From the NCBI RefSeq assembly GCF_009389715.1, contig NC_052405.1:10209194-10273193 (forward strand): 64,000 nt of DNA. The letters run 5' to 3'. The position numbers and the translations under genes are program-made. This document shows positions 3,963 through 41,200 of this stretch, in pieces. The notes beneath the pieces are model-generated. The model was given only the letters and a program-made list of their open reading frames with translations, was not told the origin of the DNA and did not search any database. This DNA is from Phoenix dactylifera. Its lineage: Eukaryota; Streptophyta; Magnoliopsida; Arecales; Arecaceae. How positions within the stretch are numbered: position 1 is the first letter of the stretch; the number at the start of each line of letters is the position of its first letter.

Positions 3963-6900
3963 TCATGCTCTGGCTCTCTTGTTGCTGCAAGCAGGGCATT
4001 TGTACTGCTTGATGTGCTCAGCTCTGGCAGGAGTGATCCTGACACACTTACCGTGGAACCATCTCTCGCAAATGTCACAGCAAATCCAGAATTCATCATT
4101 GGCGTAGTTGTCCCCGCATGCACCACACAGAGTATTTCCATGCTCTTCTTCATCCTCATCTTCTCTTTCACTCTCTTCTTCATCTTTCGGGGGAGGCATC
4201 TTTGAGGCCTTTATATGAGACTCAGACGGACGTGATGGCTGAAAGCAGGATAAAGAACAAAGATGCCAAAAAGGAGGAAAAATAAATTGAGATTGTTTTG
4301 ACAAATTGACGACAGTGGTGCAAGACATTCATATTCACCTTTGAGCCAGACTTGTTGCTCTTGCTGCTGCTGTTGGTGGTTTTCTCTTTTGACTGCTTTT
4401 TGGCCGTTCCTGTCACAACCTCGTATATGGTAGGGAGACCATTCATCATATGGAAGAGTCGCTTCCTGTAATTTCAGCGCCATAAGAAAATTATCAAGCA
4501 CCAGCAATTTCCATCATAATTTGGAGTTGCACCGTTTAAAATAGATGTATCATTTTTTAAAAAATAATGCTCTGAAACTAAAAGAGAGCATCATATGCAG
4601 CTGAGCATAATAGGGCTTCCTTCAGCAGAAAATACAAAGTATGCATGGTACTTTCTATGAAAGATCGAAATCTGCAATCAGCAGTCCCTTGTGAGCCCAA
4701 TTCCATAAGCTCATGAATAGAGTCAGACTTGAGAAGAAGTAACCCCTAGAGTGATGTGAAGCATGGGCAGAAGGACTTTGTTCAGAGGTCGGTGCAAGGT
4801 AAAATCTAACACCTGCACAGAGATTTCTGCACACGTGTCTCAAAGATAGCTTTGTTGTTCAGCAATCTATATACTATAAACCACCAATATCACGTGCAAG
4901 TCATAACAGAGAACTCCAGCAGTTTGTATACTGTGAAGCAATATTATTTGATGCAACAGTTCAAACAGAGTTTCATCAGTCTGCCCTGATGATAATAAAT
5001 ACAATGCACCAAAACATGACCATAATAGGGTATAATGAATAGATGACACAAGCGAAGACCAGGAAACCGTAAGTGCTATTCGCCAACATAAAAATCATTG
5101 TTGGAAGCTGAAGACTGTTCAAAAGAACAGAAGAACACAAAGGTGGAAGGACTTTATCAAGATTTAAAAGGTTTAATCTGACAGCACAACAGTGGTTTTA
5201 TGCCATAATAGGAAGCAACAATAGGAAGTGGGCCAGGTGGCATGATAAGGATGTCAGGATTAGAAAATACAAGGACACCAAACATACCACAAACTAGACA
5301 TTATTATTAATCGGATGGTGAAGAAAAATTTCTATCAAACTCCAACTGGAGACAATCTATAATCCACTTTTGGAAGGAAAATGAAAATCACTAAATGGAA
5401 AGTTTGATTTGATTTTCCAGAAGTGTGAGCACATAGCAATTGAGAATGATGGTAGGTAAAGAACCAGTTGGGAAATAGAAGAAAAGGGCGCCAGCTGTCA
5501 GAGCAGACACCTCTATAATAAATCTGATAGATGCAAGAGTCCAGGAGACAAGAACCTTATTCAGACAATGAATGTTGGACCTAGACAGATGGAACAGTAA
5601 AGAGTTTTTTATCCAAAACATTTTTGACTCATTCAACTAACCCAGGCTTGTGCTTGAAGTCCAAAGTGGTGCAAATTCAGTGGTTCTTGAAATGAAATTG
5701 AAGGATTATAGGGATTCTACAGCATTCAGAACTTTCGGTTAATGATGATAAACAGAACGGATAAGGTTTTAGTGGCTTGCTGTTCTGCAGCATCAATAAG
5801 ATAGTATAATTAATAGACACCAGATTCTGATAGATAAACAAATTAATAGCCCAGGTTCTAATGTACATCACATATTAATCCTTCAAGGTTCCTGTGCTTA
5901 GACAACACTTTCGAACATTGCACTGTAGCATTGTACATTTAAACAATATCAGAAACATTTTACCCAAAAAAAAATATATATCAGAAAGAGAGAGCAAAAC
6001 AAAGCAGTTGCCTCCTTAACCCTCCTTTTCCTGTTCCTTTCCTCATTTTTCAGGATGGGTGAAATTAAGTCCTAAAGACATGATGGTCTAAAGAATGAAG
6101 CAAATCTAGAATCACCTCTTCCTTCTCCTCTAGGTATACTAACAATAACTAAGGCATTTAAATCCTCCATCCTTTCAAGTAGCTCTGCAAAAAAAGTGAC
6201 AAGTAATCCTCCCTCAAATTACTAAAAGTCCTTCCAAGTTTTGCTCCTATAAGCAAAACTCATCTTCAAAAATGACCAATTCCAGGTCATGCTTCAGCTG
6301 CCTTCTTCACTCTAGAAAGGAGCTCTTTAAGAAGTCTCCCATATCCTTCTCAAGTTGTTCCACTTTATTACTTTGCCTCTCATTTACAATCTCCTAAAAT
6401 ATTTTATGGTGGACACAAATAAATATATTCAAAAGCAGAGAGTAGAGGATACAAAACCACTGGTTTTTGTGGAAAAGAATCAGCAATAATGTTAATAGAG
6501 TAAGATTGAAGAGGTTTAATTAATCCATAGGTCAACAAAAAGTATCATAGTGGAATCAAGATTCAATTTGAGAGAACCAGCAGTGTAGTTAAACAAAGAA
6601 AGGTTCATCAAAGGGCATGGTATTTTCCCAAGAAAATGACAATAAAAAGCTAAGAACAGTAGATTTTTTACTCCTTGAGAACGGAAACTATGTAGATAGA
6701 AATGTGAATCATTGAGTAAACAATTAGAAAACCTATCAGAAAGACCTTCAATAGTTCAGTGGAGAGGAAGAATTGGTGATACGGAGAAATTCTACAAGGG
6801 GATTTGGCATCCATTGGAGTAAAATGGGTTTCTATAACGTACCATAAGCACAACGGAAGGTGGGACCTAAAAAGTCATCTAAGAAGCCAGTTTCACAATC

Positions 6901-9900
6901 ATGTCTCTTAAAAGTCATGCGAACTTCCATCTGGCAGAAAAATACAGGAATATATGCATGTACACACACATGTAAATACAATTTCACAATCATGTCTTAA
7001 AAGTCATGTGAACTTCATCAGACAGAAAAATACACATGCACAAATATATGCACATATGTATGCATTTATACATGTAAGTACATATGTATGTACTTACATA
7101 TGTATGAATGTATGTGCATACGTACGCATTTATATATGAATGTATACAGGGGACACGTATAGAATCCTTATATAACTAATTTGGTTCCCAGAAGAATAGC
7201 AAATTTTTGTATTGAAAGTGACGATTTGAAGTTCGAGGACACCCAAACTTTACAATCCTGGCAACCAGGAGGTTCGTCGGTAGGTTCGAGTGTTTACTAC
7301 CTAGAGTTTAGGAAACATCAAATCAACCATTTGGAGGTTGTAACAGCTCCTTAGCCAAATATTGAAACATAGAAGTTACTCAAATGTTCTATATTACCAA
7401 AATGTTGGCTGTATGCAAGATCATAAAAATAGAAGACAGGCCATTGGAGGGCAGACATATAGCGTGCATGTTAGATTTCTCATCAGATTAAGGAAGGCAC
7501 GTAATGTATGAAGATAAATTTTACATAAGCAAAGCATTGCCATGACCTGTCAGTCAAGAGTTTGTCCTGAGCAATGCATCCTCCCACAATCACACCAAGG
7601 GTTTTTAAAAAAATTAATTAATAATGCTTTTAGTTCGCATATCACAAGTTCTTTCACACCAAGTACCAAATCATTTCACTGTATGTACAATCACATATGC
7701 ACCATAAAATATACAATCCTTTACAGTTCCAAAAAATCTACAAACACATTACAAATCAAAGACTGTATCAGCACATCACATCGTCGACCAGATTCATTGA
7801 CCATGATTTATTATAGACTCGGCATCATCCCTAACTTTGATAGATTGAATCAGGAAAACTAATTTACTTTGCAAAATCCAAACTCATGCCCCCTGAAACA
7901 CCTGAAACACTTTAAACCTCTCTCCTCAACATTTCTAATGTAATCCACAACAACTATGTCTCCTTTCTCAGGAAAAAAAAAGAAGTCTCTTCTTACCAAA
8001 GCTAATGCATCCATCACATAAGCTTTCACTGGAACTGTGTTCATCCAAGCCTAAATTTGCATCAGCCCAATATCAAGTTGTATCCCAGTCCACTGGAAAA
8101 AAAGTCTTGTCACAAAACTTCTGCTAGTATGTGAGATTTGATATCTCTCTTATTCAACTATTTTTCATCCACATCGCTTATATTCCTCAGATCTCAACAA
8201 TCTAAACTTCCTCAATTTTTGTTAGGGTGCATTGTATCTAGTGCCCTAGTGCCAAAGCTCAAAGCAGCCACATCACCCATTTTCAAAAAAGCCTGTCCAT
8301 AGTTGCAGCATCAAAGCAGTTATACTGGAATTGTCAGTCAGCAAGCTACCATCACTTGGTTGAATTCCTTGGCAATCATATTTCTAATAATGTTCTACGG
8401 ACATTCAAATAACTGAAACTCTTGAGCATATAAAATGGAAACTCTTGAGCATCCATCAATCTCGGTTGTACGTTCCATGGTTTCCTCAAGTGATAAGCAT
8501 GTGACGAAGAAAATTTCTCTCTTTAATTTCTTTCTCAGAGTACCCACATAACTTGATCAAATATCTTTTTCTTAAAGAGTCCAAATATGGAAGGCTAATT
8601 GATATTCTTAATATATATATATATATAGTCACTACAAAGTATGAACATCTCCCAAATCCCCATATGGGTCAGAAAGAAGTCAAATCTCAGAAGCCTCTCT
8701 CTCATCCTCTTATAAAAATCTGTATTTTCAAAATAAATAAAAGAATTTTGATCACAGCTGTCAACGTGTATTGCACATGTCGCAATTTATTATCCTAAAC
8801 CCAAGCCATTGTGCATCTTAATCAACCATCCGACAAAAGAATGGTTAATTCATAGAGATCACATGGTATGAAAAATTTTAAACAACTCAACTCAACTCAA
8901 CTAAGCCTTAATCCCAAACTAATTAAAGTCGGCTAAGGGAATCCTTTTCCTTCATTCCACTTTGTTTAGGGCCACATTTTTGAAAGATGTAAAAATATCA
9001 AACCTTTCCTTGCTACTTCATCCAATGTGATTGCCGTCTACTAGACACCTCTTTCCTTCTACAATTATTAGATCACTCTTTCATACCAGTACATCACTCG
9101 GCCTAAGTTGTACGTTTCCAAAACTTATAAGCTGTCCTCTCAATTTGTCCTCAATTGGTGCTACATCTATCTTTTTATGAATGACCTCACTTCTTATTTT
9201 ATCTTCTTTTTTTTGTATTACCACATGAAAGATTTTAAACAGGGGCAATCTTATCCATTTAATTACAAATGTCAATTGCATGATGATTTGATCATTTGAT
9301 TGATACATGTACTTCTATCCAATAATCACTACACAAGTTTTCAAGAGTCTAAAGAACCACATTTCATAAAGTAGCCAATCAACAGGAGTTTTCAAGTGAT
9401 TACATGACTCTTTTATTCAGCATGAGACCATGGATTTTGTGAGTTATTTGTAGGACTCCAAGTTTGAGCACGTACAGTGCCAAAAAGTTCATTTCAGTTA
9501 CAAGTTGGTTAAGTCCCAGAATCATTTTGATCAATTACAAAGTGGTTTAAGTGTCGGGGAATCTAAACTGTTACCAAAAAATACTCTCTATAACAGAGAA
9601 CCTATTAAGTTGAAGTATTACTAGAGGTCACCAAGCAATCAGGCTTTCTTCTTTTTGTTCTTCAAAAAAATAAGGGTACCTACTTGTTATAGGATTCCGA
9701 CCAGATGGTGTTATACAGGCCTACATATATAAGGTCATCCTTGTAAATCATACAAAATAACCGATTCTGCAAACAGATTTCACAAGAGTTTCCTCCCTTC
9801 TGAATAAGGTGAAGCTTTATTCCTCTCTTGGTGATGGCTCCATAAGAGCCATCAGGTGGATGAATTTCAAGATATGGCAGAAGTAACAATTACTCAGATA

Positions 9901-12900
9901 TCCACCAAACCTATCCTTCTGTTTTACATCAAAACCTCAGATCCTCTTGCCATACCCTACCAAAACTTCTAGGTTCTCTTCTGCTTTACAGTTCAAACTT
10001 TAATTTACAAGTTCTCAAAAAAATCTAGAAAAGCATGTACCAGTCTCTTTCTTAAAGCCCTACTTATCCCAATGATCACTTGATCATCATCGCTTTCCCA
10101 AAACCATGTCCCAAAATCAGCAAATTGATAACCTTTCCAGAACGATATTTTTCTTTTTTAAGAATGAGCTATCAAAACCCCTTCTCTAAAACCAAATCAT
10201 CAGAAAACCATATCCACTACCTTATCACTAAAAGAATTAACACATGAAAGTTCTAAACAACCTCCCCTGATCAGCTTGAAACTTTTAAAAGCACAGAACG
10301 AAAAGTGCCTACTTTAAGATCTTGAAAAATCTAAAAGAAATCATAACTCAAGTATTCAGAAATAGTGAAGTCTAAGCCCATTAAATTAACTAACAGAAAA
10401 AGATAACCCCATATCCATTATAAATTAAATGCACTTTTACTTTATAATTTATATAGAATAGCAAGAAGATAAAAAATTAGCGAGTCAATCTAAATTGTCC
10501 AATCAAAAAGAATATGTTTAAAACATAATAAGTATACAAATCTAGAACATGCCACACTACATATAATGTCAAAGCAAGACCTTATAGAATATGACAAAAG
10601 AAGGTACAACAAACTTGGTATATTGACATTTAATTAAAAGATACGTGTATGAGGTCATATACTATGGAGTTGGCTTAGGTCATGCTCTGGGAAACAATGA
10701 ATCGACACAACACTTATATCAGGTGTGTGGATTGAAATTTGAAAGAAATGTGTCCATAATATGTAACAATATAATAGCTACATGAGATTAATAATAAAAA
10801 GCATATTAACTTGATCGATAACACTTGAGAATGGAGGCATAATAGTATTGCAATTATCCTACGAGAACATGGAGTCTGTCACATATAAGGACTTTCTTTT
10901 TCACAAAGAACACCATATATTCAAATCATAAAACCTATCAATTTAGAATATGTGAAAGTGACGCTGGGGAGGTGTTGAACTTGGGCTAAAAACTTGAAAT
11001 AGGAAGGGTAAGTCACTAGAAGCAATTGATTGTGGCGAGGTAGAACTTAGCAACAAGTTCAAATGCTTTTGCTCCACTGGGAACATCAGATAGCTTTATG
11101 ATAGATCCTTCTTCCTCGTCACTAGCATCCAGATGTGCGCAATGTTCTGCAGCTACTTGAAGCATCAGCAGTGCATAGGGAACATATCTCTCAAAATGCT
11201 CACCGATTCCAACGGCAATATCACCAAAGCATGAGAATATAGAAGGTTTGACAAACTGATGGAGCATAGAATTAGAGAATTTCTTCAGAAGTTGACTCCT
11301 GATACCATCACAAAAAGGAAGACCCTTTTCATCCAAGGTATGGCAAATGTCACCAACCACACCAACTAAGATAGAGCAGACTTGATAATCCTCTATAAAT
11401 TGATCTATATCAGCCAGTTGGTTTGATGGTGATGTTAAAATTCTAGCGCCATCCAAATTGAACACCATCAAAGGCATAGATGAGCCGACACTATGTTGCA
11501 ATGATGGCATTGAAATCACATCTCCAGGAGCATGTGTGGACAGAAATGAGTGTGCCAGGCTCGGAGAGGGGCCTGAGGTGTTTGCAGTTGTTAAACTGTT
11601 GACTAGACCATGGATGATATAGACATTCTCCTTGTGTACATAAGCTAGCAGTGGGCCACGGTAGTCTAACATGAATAATCTCTTTTATTAAAGTGCCTCT
11701 TGCATTGTCATCATTCCCTTTATTTCCCGTTCAATTAGTTCTTCAGTGATCCCTAATTCCGATAGGCCATAAACTTTAGGATCAAATTTACTAACTATTG
11801 GAAGTTCCTGACCATGTGAAGTGCACTTGGTGTGGAAGATATTGTGACATAACCAGTTTGCATCATCAGCTATCATGGTCGCATTCAAGTTGCAATCGAC
11901 CACCAAAGCTTCACCTTGATCAGCATGCACAAGCTCTTCCTTGCTCAGGCCTTCCTCATCCCACTTGCCTAGTTAATCTTCTTGTTCTTTTTTCTTCTTC
12001 GCAAGCTTCTTCCTCTACCAAAGATATGATCTTGCAGTTTGGGCAATCAGCTGCACTTTAACCTTGACACTTGAAGCACTTGTGGGGGTTGGTATAATTG
12101 GGATTGCTAAGGATGCCCTTGTCCTTCTTATGAGATGGTTCGGAGGCGCTGGCTTTGAAGGAAGCCGCCGTCGACATGAAACTCTCCCAATTGGATGCTC
12201 TATCTCTATACTTCAGAAAGCGTGAATTACTTGTTTCCGACTTTTGTTGCAATCGTATCACGTCATTCAACGTCCAATAGGGTTGGAGTTGCACAACTTG
12301 CTCAATTTTAGGCTTCAGTCCACCAAGATATCATGCCATAGGTTGCTCTTTGGGTTTTTTTATGTCGCATGTCATGAGAAGTTAGTCTAATTCCATTGTA
12401 TACACTTCTACGGCCATGTTGCACTGCCTAAGATTGTGGAGCTTAAGAAATTTATTCTAGCAATAATCTTCAAGTAGGAATTTATGTTTGAGTTCATAAC
12501 GCATCTTATCCCATGTTCGGATCTTACCACATCCTTCATGCTCATGTCGTTGCTTGAGATTTTCTCACCAAATTGATGCTTACTTCTTAAGCTTGATGGC
12601 AACGCTTCACACGTCGATTGTCGAAAACTTTGTTAAGCTCGAAAATTCATTGAATGGTGTACAACCAATCAACGAACTCGTCATATTGTAGGCATCCTTC
12701 AATGTCCGAGATATCTATTTAGATGCCAAAGTAATGATGGTTACGATGTGGTCTTCGTTCATATTGGTGATGGGTATCTTCTTTGCTTGATGAAGATGCT
12801 TTTCTGTTGTACAATGGATTAAAATCTTCCACTTCTTCATTGGAGCGCTCGCTTTCATCATCAAATAGCTCTGTTAAAGTCATGATTGAAACCCTGAAGA

Positions 12901-15822
12901 TGATGGCATTCATGTTACTCTTGTTGTTGTTGAAATCGTTGATTTTCTTCTTAAAGTTGTTCGAGTTGGTGGCACAATTCAACTAATTCGATGTCTCACA
13001 GATCTCATATGCATTCAACATGTTCTTCGACGTTGCGGCAGCAAGGAGGCATCTTGAAACCGTGCTCTGATACCAATTGGCTCTCCCATCAACAACTTAA
13101 TCAAAGTTATCCTATTTAGTTCTTGATTCTAAATACCACTCCATCTTTTTAAACGATACGCAAGCCTTGGAGCATCAGAATATTTATCCAGAATGTGCTA
13201 ATAAATATACACTAAAGCCTCATAAACAACCCAAAATTAAAATGAGATGTTTTTACACTTATGAGAGTCCATGCTATGTAATAGCAAAACTTAAAGATAC
13301 GGCCAAACAGGCTCGAAACAAACAATTCTTAAAACAACTGATCACTAAACCTTCCTCTAACAAACCAATCTTAGTCCTTAAGCAAACTTCAGGTGTCAAC
13401 TAATAAAAGAAACAAATGGCACCTCCTTTGACTCAAAAATCAACTTCTAATCGCTACTCAAGAAGAAACCTTTGATATTCAAATTTTAAGACTTCCACCA
13501 TGAGCCCCTCTTTGGTACATACTAGGGCTGTGTTGCATCAGTTCAGTGATTCATAATATGTTGATCAACTAACCAAATATATTGCTGCTCAGAATAAGAA
13601 TGCAACCTCGCACAATGTTACGAAACTTTACCAAGTACAGAAAAAAGAAGACAGCTACAGATAATCATTTTTCAAAAGCAGCATACCGCATATGAATAAC
13701 ATCAATGCAATCAAAAACTAGATATGTGCATCTATACCCAACCGCATATTCAAATCATGACAATCAAGAATTCCCAAAGAGAACACATGAAGAAATGCTT
13801 CAATTCTATTTAAAATCTGTAAGAAACATTAATTATGGCGTCTAGGCTGCCAAAATGTTCATCCTCCTTTTATCTTCAATAACATTTCATTTTCTCACAC
13901 CAAATAATCAATTAAATCTTTATATCAAATTAAATATGAAACTACCTTATACTTGGTAGTCATATTTTTTTCACTCAATGAATAATGTATATCCCTTCAT
14001 CCAAAAAAAGGATTCTTATTGACAGGTAGCAAAATGTCGAGCTTCCAGAGTGCAACAAATACTATAGCTGCACAGGATGAATGCAGTGCAATTTTCATAG
14101 CAATACATGCATATATAAGCAACTCCATCAAACATGACAATCATTTAATCAAGATCGACTACATCCAAAGAATAAGGATGAAGAGATGCAAATATATAAT
14201 TCTATAGACCAAAACATAACAAACATGAACATCTTAACAAAGAAACAAGAACACTAGGGAATATGATGAAACTTCTTAGTCATTCTGAAACATCTAGGAC
14301 TTTTGAATCGGTTCAATTTACTGCATCCACAAAACATGAAACTTGAAACAAGAACTACGTTTAGCTACTAAAATTCTCCATTGAATGTATCCTAGAACTA
14401 AAAAAATCAACCCACTTCTTGCGCTTTTTCTGTAAATCATCGATGCATAATGTAGTAAAAGCCAAAAGTAAATATGCTTTCAAAGTAGCTACTATCTCCA
14501 AATGTCAACAACAAACAATCAAAACAGGTACAAGAAAAAGATACGAAAAGAAAATGACTACCTGGCTTCTTTATCAAACCCAAAACGTGCACCAAAATAG
14601 AAGGCAACAGCCAATAACCACGCATCACTGTGGACTGCAACAAGTGACAACCAATCCTTCTCATCCATTCCATCTCGAGCAAAATTAATTCCTAATGCTG
14701 GTTCCGGAAGTTCAGGAGGAACTTCCTCAGCAGGCAAGGTTACTTCCCATGTTTCATTTGGAAGACCATATAAGCATAAATTCTCCTTGTCTGTACATGC
14801 AACAGCATCACCGCATTACTATGAAATATTCAACCCAGATTATTAGCCATGAAGCCAACAGATAAGCTGTTCAACAATTTATTTGACAGCCCTTTCCCCC
14901 CCCACCCCACCCCCCGGCGCATGCGCGGGAAAAAAGAAAAAGAAAAAAAAGAAACAAATGAATCCTCAAGGCTCAAAGTACTTAAATATTGCAACTGTTA
15001 AAAAAAATCATAATACAGCCAACAAAATAGCTTGCCGGAAAAAAAATAACGTCCGCTTAGTTTGTACGCTTTGAATCAACTCAAAAGGCAGAAAAACAAA
15101 GACGAAGTATTTATCTTAAGACTATAAAATAATAGTCCAACTAAAGGCAAGCCCTTCTAAGTTGCCCCAACATTAATGAAAGTTGTGCAGCTATTACCTA
15201 ATAAAGAACTCAAATGCATAAGACATCAATATATTGTACGATAAAAAAAAATATCCCTCTGAAATTCCTGAGAACACCCAAAAAATTAAGCAAAATCCAA
15301 GGAAAGCAAAAGGAATCCAACAAAAAGAAACGAATAAGCATACGTTCCTCGGAAAGCCGGAAAAAAATTTAAAAAAAATCTTTCATTTTGCTTCTTTCTT
15401 CTCTGCCGCAACAAATCTCCACAGAAACAAACCAAAAGCCAGGGAAAAACCGTTTAGATTCCCAAAATGGAAGAATACACCCAACAAAACCCTAAAAGCT
15501 AGCAACCCTGGCATCAGCGAATCAAACACAAGAGTCTGAACCTCACCGGGATCGCACTGCTGATAGAATTTCTCCACGTCTGCGACACCAGAAAAAGAAA
15601 CAAAAAAAACGCAATAATCAAGAAGTACAATTAGGATTAGCCAAAAAGGGTAAAAATACCCAATTCTTCCAACAATCGAATAAGAGAGTGATAGAAAGAG
15701 AGAGAAAGGGAGAGAACAGAACCGGTAGTGAGGGCTTTGATCATTCCAGCCCGGCGGCCTCGAAAATCCCGGAAGACCTCCTCCGGCGTCCGCGGATTGT
15801 ACGCCCCCACGCCCCCTTCCAT
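3963..15822 (-). CDS. ALFIN-LIKE PHD-finger protein, 5 exons, 254 aa
   Basis: This is a nuclear chromatin reader of the plant Alfin-like family, whose C-terminal PHD finger binds histone H3 methylated at lysine 4. Exons in transcript order are 15822-15723, 15579-15547, 14790-14562, 4465-4339 and 4238-3963. All junctions are GT-AG and phases agree, giving 765 nt, or 254 aa plus stop; about 250 aa is normal for the family. The protein starts [20 protein letters not shown]. The N-terminal Alfin domain (about 10-140) includes [24 protein letters not shown] and [21 protein letters not shown] Ser/Lys-rich linker follows, then an acidic stretch. The PHD finger lies at about 195-250: [26 protein letters not shown]. 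The C-terminus is basic. The ATG gives the conserved family N-terminus. Intron 3 (14561-4466) is unusually long, about 10 kb, and holds transposon debris. Family assignment is firm; which AL paralogue it is cannot be told. Confidence 0.96.
6890..7035. repeat. tandem duplication, period about 91 bp
   Basis: The block 'tttcacaatcatgtct', followed by an 'aaaagtcatg.gaactt' match and 'cagaaaaataca', occurs at about 6891-6947 and again at about 6982-7033. It lies inside intron 3 of the ALFIN-LIKE gene. Confidence 0.75.
7074..7097. repeat. perfect inverted repeat, 11-bp arms
   Basis: Arms GTAAGTACATA and TATGTACTTAC are separated by TG, within a longer ATGTATGT-rich stretch (7035-7140). It is capable of forming a hairpin or cruciform; most likely simple-sequence drift. 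Confidence 0.8.
8884..9205 (-). mobile_element. 5'-truncated RTE-type LINE, 3' end
   Basis: On the minus strand the translation includes [12 protein letters not shown], then QLRPSDVLV, then [11 protein letters not shown] and GIKA. This is the familiar C-terminal tail of plant RTE-clade reverse transcriptases, where the usual forms are 'VAPIEDK-RE-RLRWFGH' and 'RRPSDAPV'. It contains stops and is degenerate. The 3' end reads into 'gggattaaggcttag' and a TTGAG-repeat tail (8884-8902 on the plus strand), typical of these elements. Only about 320 bp survive. It is intronic to the ALFIN-LIKE gene. Confidence 0.82.
11046..11105 (-). pseudogene. captured BTB/NPH3-type fragment
   Basis: After the importin piece the same frame continues [23 protein letters not shown]3/RPT2-like BTB proteins have '[17 protein letters not shown]' at this point. 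The match is only about 20 residues, so this is the weakest of the four assignments. The frame then ends within nine residues at a stop (11016-11018). Confidence 0.6.
11112..11393 (-). pseudogene. captured importin subunit beta-1 fragment
   Basis: The frame reads [60 protein letters not shown] and [20 protein letters not shown]. Plant importin beta-1 has '[70 protein letters not shown]'. About 94 residues of HEAT-repeat sequence are present without a stop. It is surrounded by other gene fragments rather than importin exons, so it is not an importin gene. Confidence 0.9.
11391..11576 (-). pseudogene. captured LEUNIG / LEUNIG_HOMOLOG fragment
   Basis: The frame reads [25 protein letters not shown] and [17 protein letters not shown]. 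This corresponds to the stretch between the Q-rich region and the WD40 repeats of the plant Groucho/Tup1-type co-repressors LUG and LUH ('STHTPGDV-SMP-L-H', '[18 protein letters not shown]'). About 60 residues are kept with no stop. It ends at a D/EDYQ junction where it passes in frame into importin beta-1; FVED and the importin FEEYQ look alike here, so the junction may lie in microhomology. Confidence 0.82.
11628..11810 (-). pseudogene. captured lipoxygenase fragment
   Basis: The frame reads [30 protein letters not shown], then two consecutive in-frame TAA codons (11690-11685), then [18 protein letters not shown]. Plant 13-lipoxygenases have '[46 protein letters not shown]'. The match is collinear, and the two stops sit exactly where the family usually has Glu-Gln or similar. 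The fragment is about 60 residues from the middle of the catalytic domain and carries none of the iron ligands that I can see. It is fused upstream to retrotransposon sequence and downstream to a short unidentified linker. Confidence 0.85.
11811..11930 (-). pseudogene. retrotransposon pre-protease segment
   Basis: The open frame reads [15 protein letters not shown] and then [16 protein letters not shown]. Plant Ty3/gypsy polyproteins carry 'D-GE-LVVRR-L' and 'WLR-NIFHTRCTS-GKVC' immediately before the aspartic protease DGGS motif. Here the element sequence stops at CTSHG and continues in frame into lipoxygenase sequence, so the protease active site is absent. Confidence 0.75.
12058..12986 (-). 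pseudogene. retrotransposon gag remnant
   Basis: Broken across frames with several stops. Recognisable pieces are an N-terminal acidic segment ([16 protein letters not shown]) and the gag motif [14 protein letters not shown], which is very like the '[12 protein letters not shown]' of plant Ty3/gypsy gag proteins. A Ser/Lys segment and HKCFKCQG, the start of a CCHC knuckle, follow. It cannot make a full Gag as it stands. It follows the PBS directly, as expected. Confidence 0.75.
13064..13075 (-). other. retrotransposon primer-binding site (initiator tRNA-Met)
   Basis: The minus strand reads TGGTATCAGAGC, the canonical plant LTR-retrotransposon PBS complementary to the 3' end of initiator tRNA-Met. 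It lies about 80 bp before the first gag-like frame. Confidence 0.9.
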
Positions 15823-25720: not shown

Positions 25721-26420
25721 AAATCTCACCAAAAAAAAAAACCTTTCTTTCCTACAAATTCTTCTCTAGTGCTAAAGAATTCGAATCATCACCTCACCAG
25801 AATATTAAGCAAAATGGAACAGAAAAATCGAGAAAAATATGGAAAAAATGGTACCAATCGAGAGAAGAGAAACCCTAGGAATCGAATCTTGCCTCGCCTC
25901 CGAATCCAACGCTTTCTTCTCGATCTTTTCTCCAATAATTTTGGAAAAAGAATTACTCCGTCTCCGGTTGGGGGCTCGCGAGGTCCAACCCTAGCTCGCT
26001 GAGGCCGCCGCGATTCCTTGACCGCGTGATCCGCCTCCAGGAGTTAACTATCCAGCGCTGGCAACCATGGGACTACCCGATCCATCGACCTTAACCGTCC
26101 AATTGATGAGTCACACATTAGACGGTCCTGATTCCCAGATTTCGAATCGGTGCTTTGTTTGCCGATGACCGAAGGGTGTTGTTGTGGGGAGAAAGGAGTT
26201 CATGGAGATTGAGTTAATTTTTAAGCTTTGATGCTGACTTCGGATAGCTAAAGGGGCGGAGAGGGGCACAGGATTGTTGAATTTTAGAGCGGAAGTTGGT
26301 CGTTGCGAGGTGGCTCATTTCTGCCATCGGGTCATCTGGAGCCGTTCACTGGGAACGAAACAAATTTATGAAATAGATGGCCGGGATTGAACGCCTCTGC
26401 CCACCTAATTTCTCATTGAC
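25721..26420 (-). promoter_or_regulatory. upstream region of first FRS gene
   Basis: GC-richer flank with an AAACCCTAG-type motif at about 25870, typical of plant 5' leaders. It changes to AT-rich intergenic DNA with an AT microsatellite at about 26436-26452. Transcription start not determinable. Confidence 0.35.
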
Positions 26421-38239: not shown

Positions 38240-41200
38240 CTAGAGATCAAAGCTGTGGCTGTTGAAATGGAAGACTGCTTGATTCCAGCTGCCTCTGATG
38301 TTCTGTGACCTGATCTCCCTCGCAACACCAGACTGGAGGCCAGGTGGTCCACATACAATTACACCCACATCGGCACGGCCCACATTCTCCGAGAACGAAC
38401 TGAAAATGTCTGGGAGAACCAAAAAAAAAAATGCAGATTGAGTCACCTAGTTCAGTTTCAAACTAAAATACCACTGTCATGAGAAAGACACACTTAAACT
38501 TTTCTTTCTCCCTTGCCCTTTAACTTGTGGTTGTCATAAAATGTGAAAGAATATAAAAGACTGTTGGTGAAGACAAGGGGACTATTTTTTTGTTTTGGCA
38601 GGAAGATAAAGCTACTATTTGCAATGAAGTTGAGAGAACCTAGTTCTATATAGAAGTATGAGAATCAATGAGGCACTTCAGCCTTTTTTGTTATTATAAA
38701 GGCATCAATTTCCTAGTAGGATCCATCATAATTTAGCCTATGTGAAGTTGTGATTGTGCTTAAATGGATTTTGAATGTCTTAATCTAGCTGTGTCATGCT
38801 GTGGTTTTGCTATGTCTCTCCAACTGGTTTGCGAACTAGGCAAAAAACATGGTAGTTTGAATAAAGGTTGACAGACGATACGAGAAATTGGAATGAGCAC
38901 CGATCTCTGGAGACAGTGATCAAATAGAAGAACTCAGTGGATCAATGTCAAAAATCTTGCATCAAACTTTATCAAAGAATGAAAGTAGGTCAAGGCATCT
39001 GAAGCTTTAGTCTGTTGATGTATGTATTGTCAATCATTTGAGGATTTTGCAGGAAGGAACGATTTATTTGTGCCATATGAGCACGTGCAGTTGGAGCAAT
39101 CCAGTAGAAGTATGCTTTGATATTGTAACATGAAGCTAATGCGACATGGTAACGTGTCGGGTAATAAATTTTACATAATTTGTTGCAAGTCCTTATAAGA
39201 GTAAAGAAAGAGTGCTCATTACCTTGAAAATCAGGCCTGCATCCATACCGAGTCGTTTGCAGACTTGAAAGACTTGTCATACTCATCTCCCCATGGAGAC
39301 TTGGCTCCCTGCAATGCCCCAAGTTGCCTTTTGCAGCATCAACTGTCCACTTTTCATTGCGTGAGCTACATTTTTCCCATTGGTTCCAGAAGTAAACAAC
39401 AATACCCCCCAGAAAAATGACACCAGCAACCATGCATAAGGTAAACAAGAGCCCCCGGTACCACCAAGCAGATACTCCAAATGGTTTGATGTAATATACT
39501 TCCACAATACCGAATAATAGAATGAAACCAAGAGTAGATGCAACGACATAAATTCCAGACCAGATGTTATTCCCTGTGCCAACCAAACATGACATCATAC
39601 TACCATTTGTTGTGGAAAGAGAGGGAGACATCATGCTCACATCAACTTTACCCTCTTCCTGCAATGAAAACATTGAATAAGAGTCTAGCGGCTATTCAAC
39701 CCAAGGAACAAAAGAATGATGTTGATGTTGGGCATCTAGGCATACCAATGAAGGCTCTGATTCTTGAGTTACATAAGCTTGAATATCCAGATGCAATTTA
39801 TCGGAGAAAGATGAATATATGTGCTGTGCATCAACTGCTGAAAGGAGAGAAAGCTCCTTAGATTTTTTAACAGCCCAAACAACCAATACATTCTTTGGTA
39901 AACAAGGTTTTCCCTCCCTAATTCGGTGAAGGATGTCACTCAATATGGCCAGGAAGGGTGAAATACCAATGCCACCAGCTACCAGTATGAGATTTTCATA
40001 CCTGAGAACAGAAAGTGAGAGTTGAATCATGTGACTTAACGGCAAGCAATGACATGGGCTTCTAGTGCAAAAATGTCAGTACACACATTTCTCGCAAAAC
40101 AGCATATCAATGAAGTACTGGAAAAGTTAAAGTGATACAACTACTGTTTGCTTGTAACATTTCTTTTTCTGTTTTTTAGGGAAAAGAAGAGGACTGTGGT
40201 TTCCTGTAGTCAGATCAAATTACGGAAGAGAGGAGAGGCTCACATCAAGTGGTAGGGCGACTCATGTCCATATGGCCCTTCAACAGAGGCTGTTATACTA
40301 CTAGGTTGTGACTGAGAGTCCTTTTGAGGCTGGTCCGGAACATTAGTGATGATATCCCTCAGTTTCCCTGTCCATGTGCCAAGTACTTTTATTAAAATTG
40401 ACAGATGGTATCTACCATCCAAAGGACTGGAGGAAACACTGAATGGATGCCACTGCAACCATGGCAATTCTCGTACTTGAAGGAAAATAAAGCTGAGAGC
40501 ATTGTAACGAAGATCTGCATATTCGAACAAACTCATAGTTAGTATTAATTTCTATTTAAAAAGCTAGAACTTGAAATTTCTAGCTAATGAGAGATGGCAT
40601 CCCTCTGACGAGCATCTTGTTTACTTTATAACTATGACAAAAAAGGATTGATAATAGCTAATCAGTTCAAAAGAAATATTTTGATCTTAAAGAAAATGAT
40701 CAATAAGTCATACTTGCTGGCTTCGAAAGGATCAATTCCACGGTTCCACATGGGCGAGACACTGCTGAAATGATATCAACTGTAGTTCGAGACTGGCAGA
40801 ACCGCAGAAAACGATCAAGTATGAAAAGGAAAACTGCTCCAGCTGCCATGCTGAAGATGAAGTCTCCAACATGCAGCGCTAAGAACACAACAAAGATCAC
40901 ATACAATTGATGGGTGTAAAAGAAAAGCTCAAAATAGTTTTTCCGCACAGGATGCAATGATGTCACCCACATCAACAAACCCGCCAACAGGCTAATTACC
41001 CCAGGAAAATTAGCAACACCAATATTCTTCCACTCTCGAATCTGAAAAACAAAACCAAGTGTCAATTGATTGATTAAAGACAGAAATACCAATTCCAACA
41101 TGATCCTCAATCAAAATTTTGAAATTATTTACATATTGAAAATAGATCGCACAATATGGGTTTCAGATTCTGATTTTATGGAATCATTTATTGTTTATAG

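Follow-up and report, generated by a model that had tools for sequence, protein, structure and literature searches.

A defective LTR retrotransposon of Phoenix dactylifera carries fragments of four unrelated host genes

A defective, non-autonomous LTR retrotransposon of Ty3/gypsy type carries pieces of four unrelated genes of its host, Phoenix dactylifera, as the original prediction had proposed. Pieces of a lipoxygenase (LOX) gene and an importin beta-1 (IMP) gene are recognised by Pfam, and those of a LEUNIG-like (LUH) gene and an NPH3-type gene by their genomic donors. The element lies in the window, a stretch of 64,000 nucleotides at C14:10209194-10273193 (C stands for contig), and the whole 773-Mb assembly of 2,391 contigs was searched. 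Relatives with other gene mixtures occur in the same genome; it therefore seems that a single old lineage took up host messages more than once.

Position and structure of the insertion

The host is an Alfin-like PHD gene, and the element occupies its intron 3 on the same strand as the gene, which agrees with the proposed sense location in an intron of a chromatin-reader gene. All features of the host gene and of the element described here are on the minus strand of the window. Exon 3, upstream of this intron, is located at 14563..14795 (Alfin, E 1.5e-41), and the region of exons 4 and 5 at 3965..4470, with the PHD finger (E 1.2e-10) in the last exon. The edges of both are approximate, and exon 4, which has no Pfam match, was assigned by eye. 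Elsewhere in the window, also on the minus strand, inspection by eye revealed two open frames of 696 and 728 codons with a FAR1-related look (at 25765 and 36066), a ferric-reductase-like frame or frames (39691-41110), and a class III peroxidase-like frame (50496).

The whole insertion extends over 10959..13081, with edges accurate to a few bases, as defined by the LTR and primer-site alignment of family members together with the collinear paralogous intron on C10. It runs from the primer binding site at its sense 5' end to the last LTR base at its sense 3' end. The core of the extent first proposed (11016..13080) is retained, and the last ~85 nt, which represent the 3' end of an LTR, had been overlooked. 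The pieces form one insertion rather than separate adjacent ones, since the gag-LOX-LUH-importin order recurs elsewhere, the donors are separate and intron-bearing, and the flanks are collinear with the element-free paralogous intron.

The primer site, the gag remnant and the pre-protease motif of the original prediction were all found. The primer binding site (PBS), TGGTATCAGAGC, stands at 13064..13075, aligns with the PBS of family members, and is presumably of the initiator tRNA-Met type. The gag capsid region (12310..12603) bears stop codons. With these read as X, it is assigned to the Ty3 type by Pfam, through Retrotrans_gag (E 7.2e-10) and through Ty3_capsid at an E value (3.5e-6) that falls short of that family's own cutoff. 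It is accompanied by a zinc-knuckle-like cysteine motif at 12034..12078, seen by eye in the translation. The pre-protease motif at 11805..11957 is the last element-derived part ahead of the captured pieces. It corresponds to query residues 1-51, for which the genome search found many matching gag loci.

At the other end, the LTR 3' end (10959..11045) is fused directly to the NPH3 piece and terminates in CA at 10959. It is 72-73% identical to the LTR ends that immediately precede the PBS in the C9 and C108 relatives, and its assignment is also based on an alignment of family members. Two LTRs and a polypurine tract were not found in the window copy, in which a single LTR is represented by its final ~85 nt. 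According to the family alignment, no LTR stands upstream of its PBS, whereas in C9, C108 and C7 the PBS directly follows the 5' LTR; in a further alignment, family LTRs look ~600-700 nt long. The LTRs had been considered missing, which is correct for the 5' side and incorrect for the 3' side. Pol was not seen in the window, C9 or C162 copies, and in one relative gag is followed by reverse transcriptase-like sequence (RVT_1, E 4.8e-5, short of Pfam's cutoff).

Captured fragments and their donors

The LOX fragment (11630..11812) consists of two joined exons, is recognised by Pfam (E 2.4e-13), and holds two adjacent TAA codons. Spliced alignment with its donor at C1:16061823 revealed that a donor GT-AG intron of 695 nt is absent at 11697/11696, in the window as well as in C9. 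The LUH fragment (11388..11622), also of two joined exons, is 82% identical over 210 nt to its genomic donor at C8:3718575, a locus that encodes WD40 repeats and that we take to be LEUNIG-like. Here, a donor GT-AG intron of 92 nt is absent at 11415/11414, again by spliced alignment in both the window and C9. The IMP fragment (11113..11393) matches TPR_IMB1 of Pfam (E 1.4e-23) and is 89% identical to its donor at C3:3773786, which has a close copy on C13; PDB sequences support the LOX and importin identities as well. The NPH3 fragment (11042..11121) is 91% identical over 80 nt to C1079 and C327. Its donor locus encodes an NPH3 domain (E 2.1e-48), and a further, weaker match was obtained on C11 in the genome search. 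In the element itself, the LUH and NPH3 pieces gave no match in the Pfam search. The overlaps of neighbouring pieces are stretches that match both donors.

All captured pieces tested lie in sense orientation. Mapping of the donors placed them on separate contigs of the same genome, where they keep introns that the element lacks. Since the donor GT-AG introns are cleanly absent from LOX and LUH, capture took place from spliced mRNA. The importin and NPH3 matches are uninformative in this respect because each falls inside a single open donor exon, and the claim that the pieces are intron-free is therefore borne out for LOX and LUH only.

Related insertions in the same genome

With a query of 2,065 bases, at least 49 genomic matches were obtained and, besides the window, two of those listed (C9 and C108) span gag through the captured part. 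Both have the gag-LOX-LUH-IMP order of the window between different flanks. They are 96% identical to each other, flanks included (K2P 0.014), and are therefore counted as one insertion, either a duplicate or a second haplotype. The search for other copies with the same junctions, suggested with the original prediction, showed that the order is shared through importin and that the next piece differs between insertions.

In C9, importin is followed by 76 nt of PEP carboxylase (PEPC; donor on C15) and then by 555 nt of an EDR2-like gene (donor on C18), so that five donors follow one another in this copy. Pfam recognised EDR2_C in three pieces of C9 (E 2.2e-4, 9.6e-8 and 7e-4), in two of them short of its cutoff. 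Five donor introns are absent from the EDR2-like piece, with clean GT-AG joins in three cases, a join one base off in another, and an imprecise one in the fifth. An EDR2 part occurs on C17 as well, together with a partial LTR and a polypurine-like tract recognised by eye; the sequence upstream of this part has a non-genic look, also by eye. The C162 insertion contains gag and ~600 nt of importin, followed by ~615 nt for which the spliced alignment with a gene on C6 falls into six blocks. A PDB sequence match (E 1.9e-5) identifies this gene as ATM, and no Pfam family was matched. Five donor introns are absent from the ATM piece, and four of the five joins are clean. The importin part of C162 may be a separate capture or the same one as in the window and C9. 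In total, seven donors were recognised, namely LOX, LUH, importin, NPH3, PEPC, EDR2-like and ATM. The matches listed, whose numbers are lower bounds, did not reveal any other copy of the element that carries NPH3, PEPC or ATM.

Additionally, gag relatives on C436, C205, C7, C11 and C2 have a common non-pol region after gag. Five peptides from it (C436, C205, C7) and one from C162 matched no Pfam family above cutoff. A genome search with the C7 post-gag region gave 36 matches, mostly family copies and short ones, among which no exon-structured donor was recognised. At C7:11361558-11370865, tandem LTR-gag-X units are arranged with a period of ~3.5 kb, in which X is not pol-like and is matched on C436, C205, C11, C29, C16, C5 and C2.

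Junctions between the pieces

Donor sequence is common to both sides at seven scored junctions, a set without gag-LOX and gag-importin: 9 nt at importin-NPH3, 8 at LUH-importin, 5 at importin-PEPC, 4 each at importin-ATM and at NPH3-LTR (scored with the C9 LTR as a stand-in), 3 at LOX-LUH, and 2 at PEPC-EDR2. Among 20,000 random donor pairs, at least 5 nt were shared in 2.25% and at least 8 nt in 0.035%. Three of the seven junctions thus share 5-9 nt, and the remaining four, with 4 nt or fewer, are near chance. Moreover, the importin pieces that precede NPH3 and PEPC break off at the same position. This would be explained most simply if element RNA already had an importin-PEPC junction and the NPH3 cDNA switched into it there.

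Ends, target site and proposed mechanism

The window copy ends within 6 nt of the PBS on one side and at the LTR terminus on the other. Alignment of the paralogous Alfin-like intron (C10:4347500-4358200) with window positions 4355 to 15198 gave 14 matching pieces. The similarity ends at 10959 and is taken up again at 13082; where the window has the element, the C10 intron has 1,987 bp of other sequence. Because this intron is collinear on both sides of the replacement, the element most likely replaced ~2 kb of target; alternatively, the 2 kb could have been acquired on C10, and nothing lost at the window site. A genome-wide search with 964 of the 1,987 bp found this stretch only at C10 and C354. 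By eye, no 5-bp target site duplication is present at the ends of the window copy.

The captured pieces with their missing introns, the donors, the junctions that insertions share or swap, the end points and the collinear paralogous site were observed directly. It is likely that they go back to a minus-strand cDNA that changed RNA templates, did not have normal ends, and became joined to the intron, where target DNA was lost. In this mechanism, a non-autonomous Ty3/gypsy-type lineage that kept gag would have taken up host sequence repeatedly during reverse transcription. The nascent minus-strand cDNA would switch from element RNA to co-packaged spliced host mRNAs and back, partly at short stretches of common sequence, yielding sense, intron-free internal fragments. 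An ancestor with gag-LOX-LUH-IMP would have transposed on two or more occasions. RNA of such an element is the most likely source of the window copy: tRNA-primed cDNA would have copied the last ~85 nt of the LTR, skipped the normal first-strand transfer, and jumped to an NPH3 mRNA. From there, it would have entered element RNA at the importin end, and copying of LUH, LOX and gag would have brought it to the primer site. The resulting cDNA, without complete LTRs, would then have been joined into the intron with the loss of ~2 kb of target.

Another history of the ends is rather improbable as a whole, although a later deletion would account for the NPH3-LTR join just as well. The window copy may once have been a full two-LTR element, from which later deletions took the 5' LTR and the stretch from NPH3 to the LTR end, with capture still at the RNA level. 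Such deletions fit the mere 4 nt shared at the NPH3-LTR junction, and normal 3' ends did exist in the lineage, since C17 keeps its polypurine-like tract and partial LTR next to the EDR2 part. However, the 5' end lies within 6 nt of the PBS, exactly where the paralogous intron resumes, and random loss of an LTR of 600-700 nt would seldom end at this point. The failed first-strand transfer is preferred for the window copy.

Age, selection and other explanations

In the importin tree (200 bootstraps), the element copies group with the C3 gene, apart from C13 (98%); the window, C9 and C108 form a group (92%) that C162 joins at 82%. The dS between C3 and C13 is 0.24. K2P between C10 and the window in the paralogous intron is 0.20-0.26 over the four stretches measured, and between the window and C9 it amounts to 0.16-0.21 for the captured pieces and 0.29 for gag. 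On these grounds, capture is old and probably took place not long after the C3/C13 duplication.

The fused frame could be thought to encode a working chimeric protein, as proposed for Bs1. All four pieces stand in one frame of 261 codons with two adjacent stops (gag has many), and the chance of four joins in one frame is ~1 in 81 by simple arithmetic. This argument is weakened by single-base gaps in the LUH piece and by the frame change between LOX and LUH in C9. Furthermore, changes at the three codon positions number 17/19/14 on the window branch and 17/18/16 on the C9 branch, against 11/12/25 in the donor-side class. Protein-level selection on the captured frame was rejected on account of this evenness. 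The two stops interrupt the frame as well, and a working protein appears very unlikely; judged from substitution patterns, the captured parts evolve neutrally and no function is indicated.

Even less probable is that separate LINE-type processed pseudogenes dropped successively into a gag relic. This would explain the absent introns, but the pieces are internal fragments of 76 to ~600 nt, all sense and joined end to end, and neither poly(A) nor target duplications were seen by eye at the junctions. Nested pseudogenes were rejected given the same order in a second insertion and the single orientation. Capture at the DNA level is known from Pack-MULE, Pack-CACTA and Helitron elements, which often carry gene pieces (PMC1947982). 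For the palm element, it is scarcely credible and was rejected: copies of genomic DNA would be expected to keep introns, whereas here introns are gone at GT-AG splice sites, and gag, PBS and an LTR end are present.

Comparison with known systems

Maize Bs1 is the classic example of an LTR element that has captured several genes. The comparison with it in the original prediction is apt, as several unrelated host gene pieces stand in a mobile LTR unit, with the intron-free LOX-LUH-IMP array at two sites. TR-GAG elements are non-autonomous and have gag without pol. The palm elements resemble them in this respect and differ in carrying identified host fragments after gag.

Host-gene capture by LTR elements as such is not rare: the sections of PMC13317346 drawn on here give figures of ~1,235 captured genes for rice and 1,343 sequences for sorghum. 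Multi-gene capture with traced donors does appear rare. Like Bs1 as portrayed in those sections, the palm element carries pieces of several unrelated host genes. Unlike Bs1, the palm lineage comprises several insertions with different gene sets and seven donors, and a single piece may lack as many as five introns. One of its copies is bounded by the PBS and an LTR end, and there is no sign of selection on protein.

Abnormal template switching is described for the plant LTR elements Veju and BARE-2 in portions of PMC13317346 and of Sabot and Schulman 2007 (PMC1950507). There, too, chimeras arose during reverse transcription, but in those accounts element RNAs or unknown sequence were joined, whereas the partners of the palm element are traced spliced host mRNAs. 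LTR-mediated retroposition likewise yields RNA-level, intron-less retrocopies, flanked by LTRs and attributed to LTR machinery (PMC8232201, in excerpt). The palm case differs from that description in its up to five donors in series (C9) and in a unit that moved again as an element. Among titles and the starts of abstracts in the open literature, with subscription papers mostly outside this scope, no palm case of this kind was found.

Because donors, lost introns, junctions, swapped cassettes and an element-free paralogous site are found in one genome, the steps of capture can be followed at nearly single-base resolution. It is tentatively suggested, with somewhat less than even confidence, that the palm lineage acquired spliced host mRNAs serially, from seven donors or more, and recombined cassettes between copies, and that the window copy reflects first-strand transfer to a host mRNA instead of its own R region, followed by end-joining. 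The idea of failed strand transfer in reverse transcription as a route to exon shuffling in plants thereby becomes testable. The kind of structure is already known from maize Bs1; what is new is the serial and swapped captures, together with the terminal structure.
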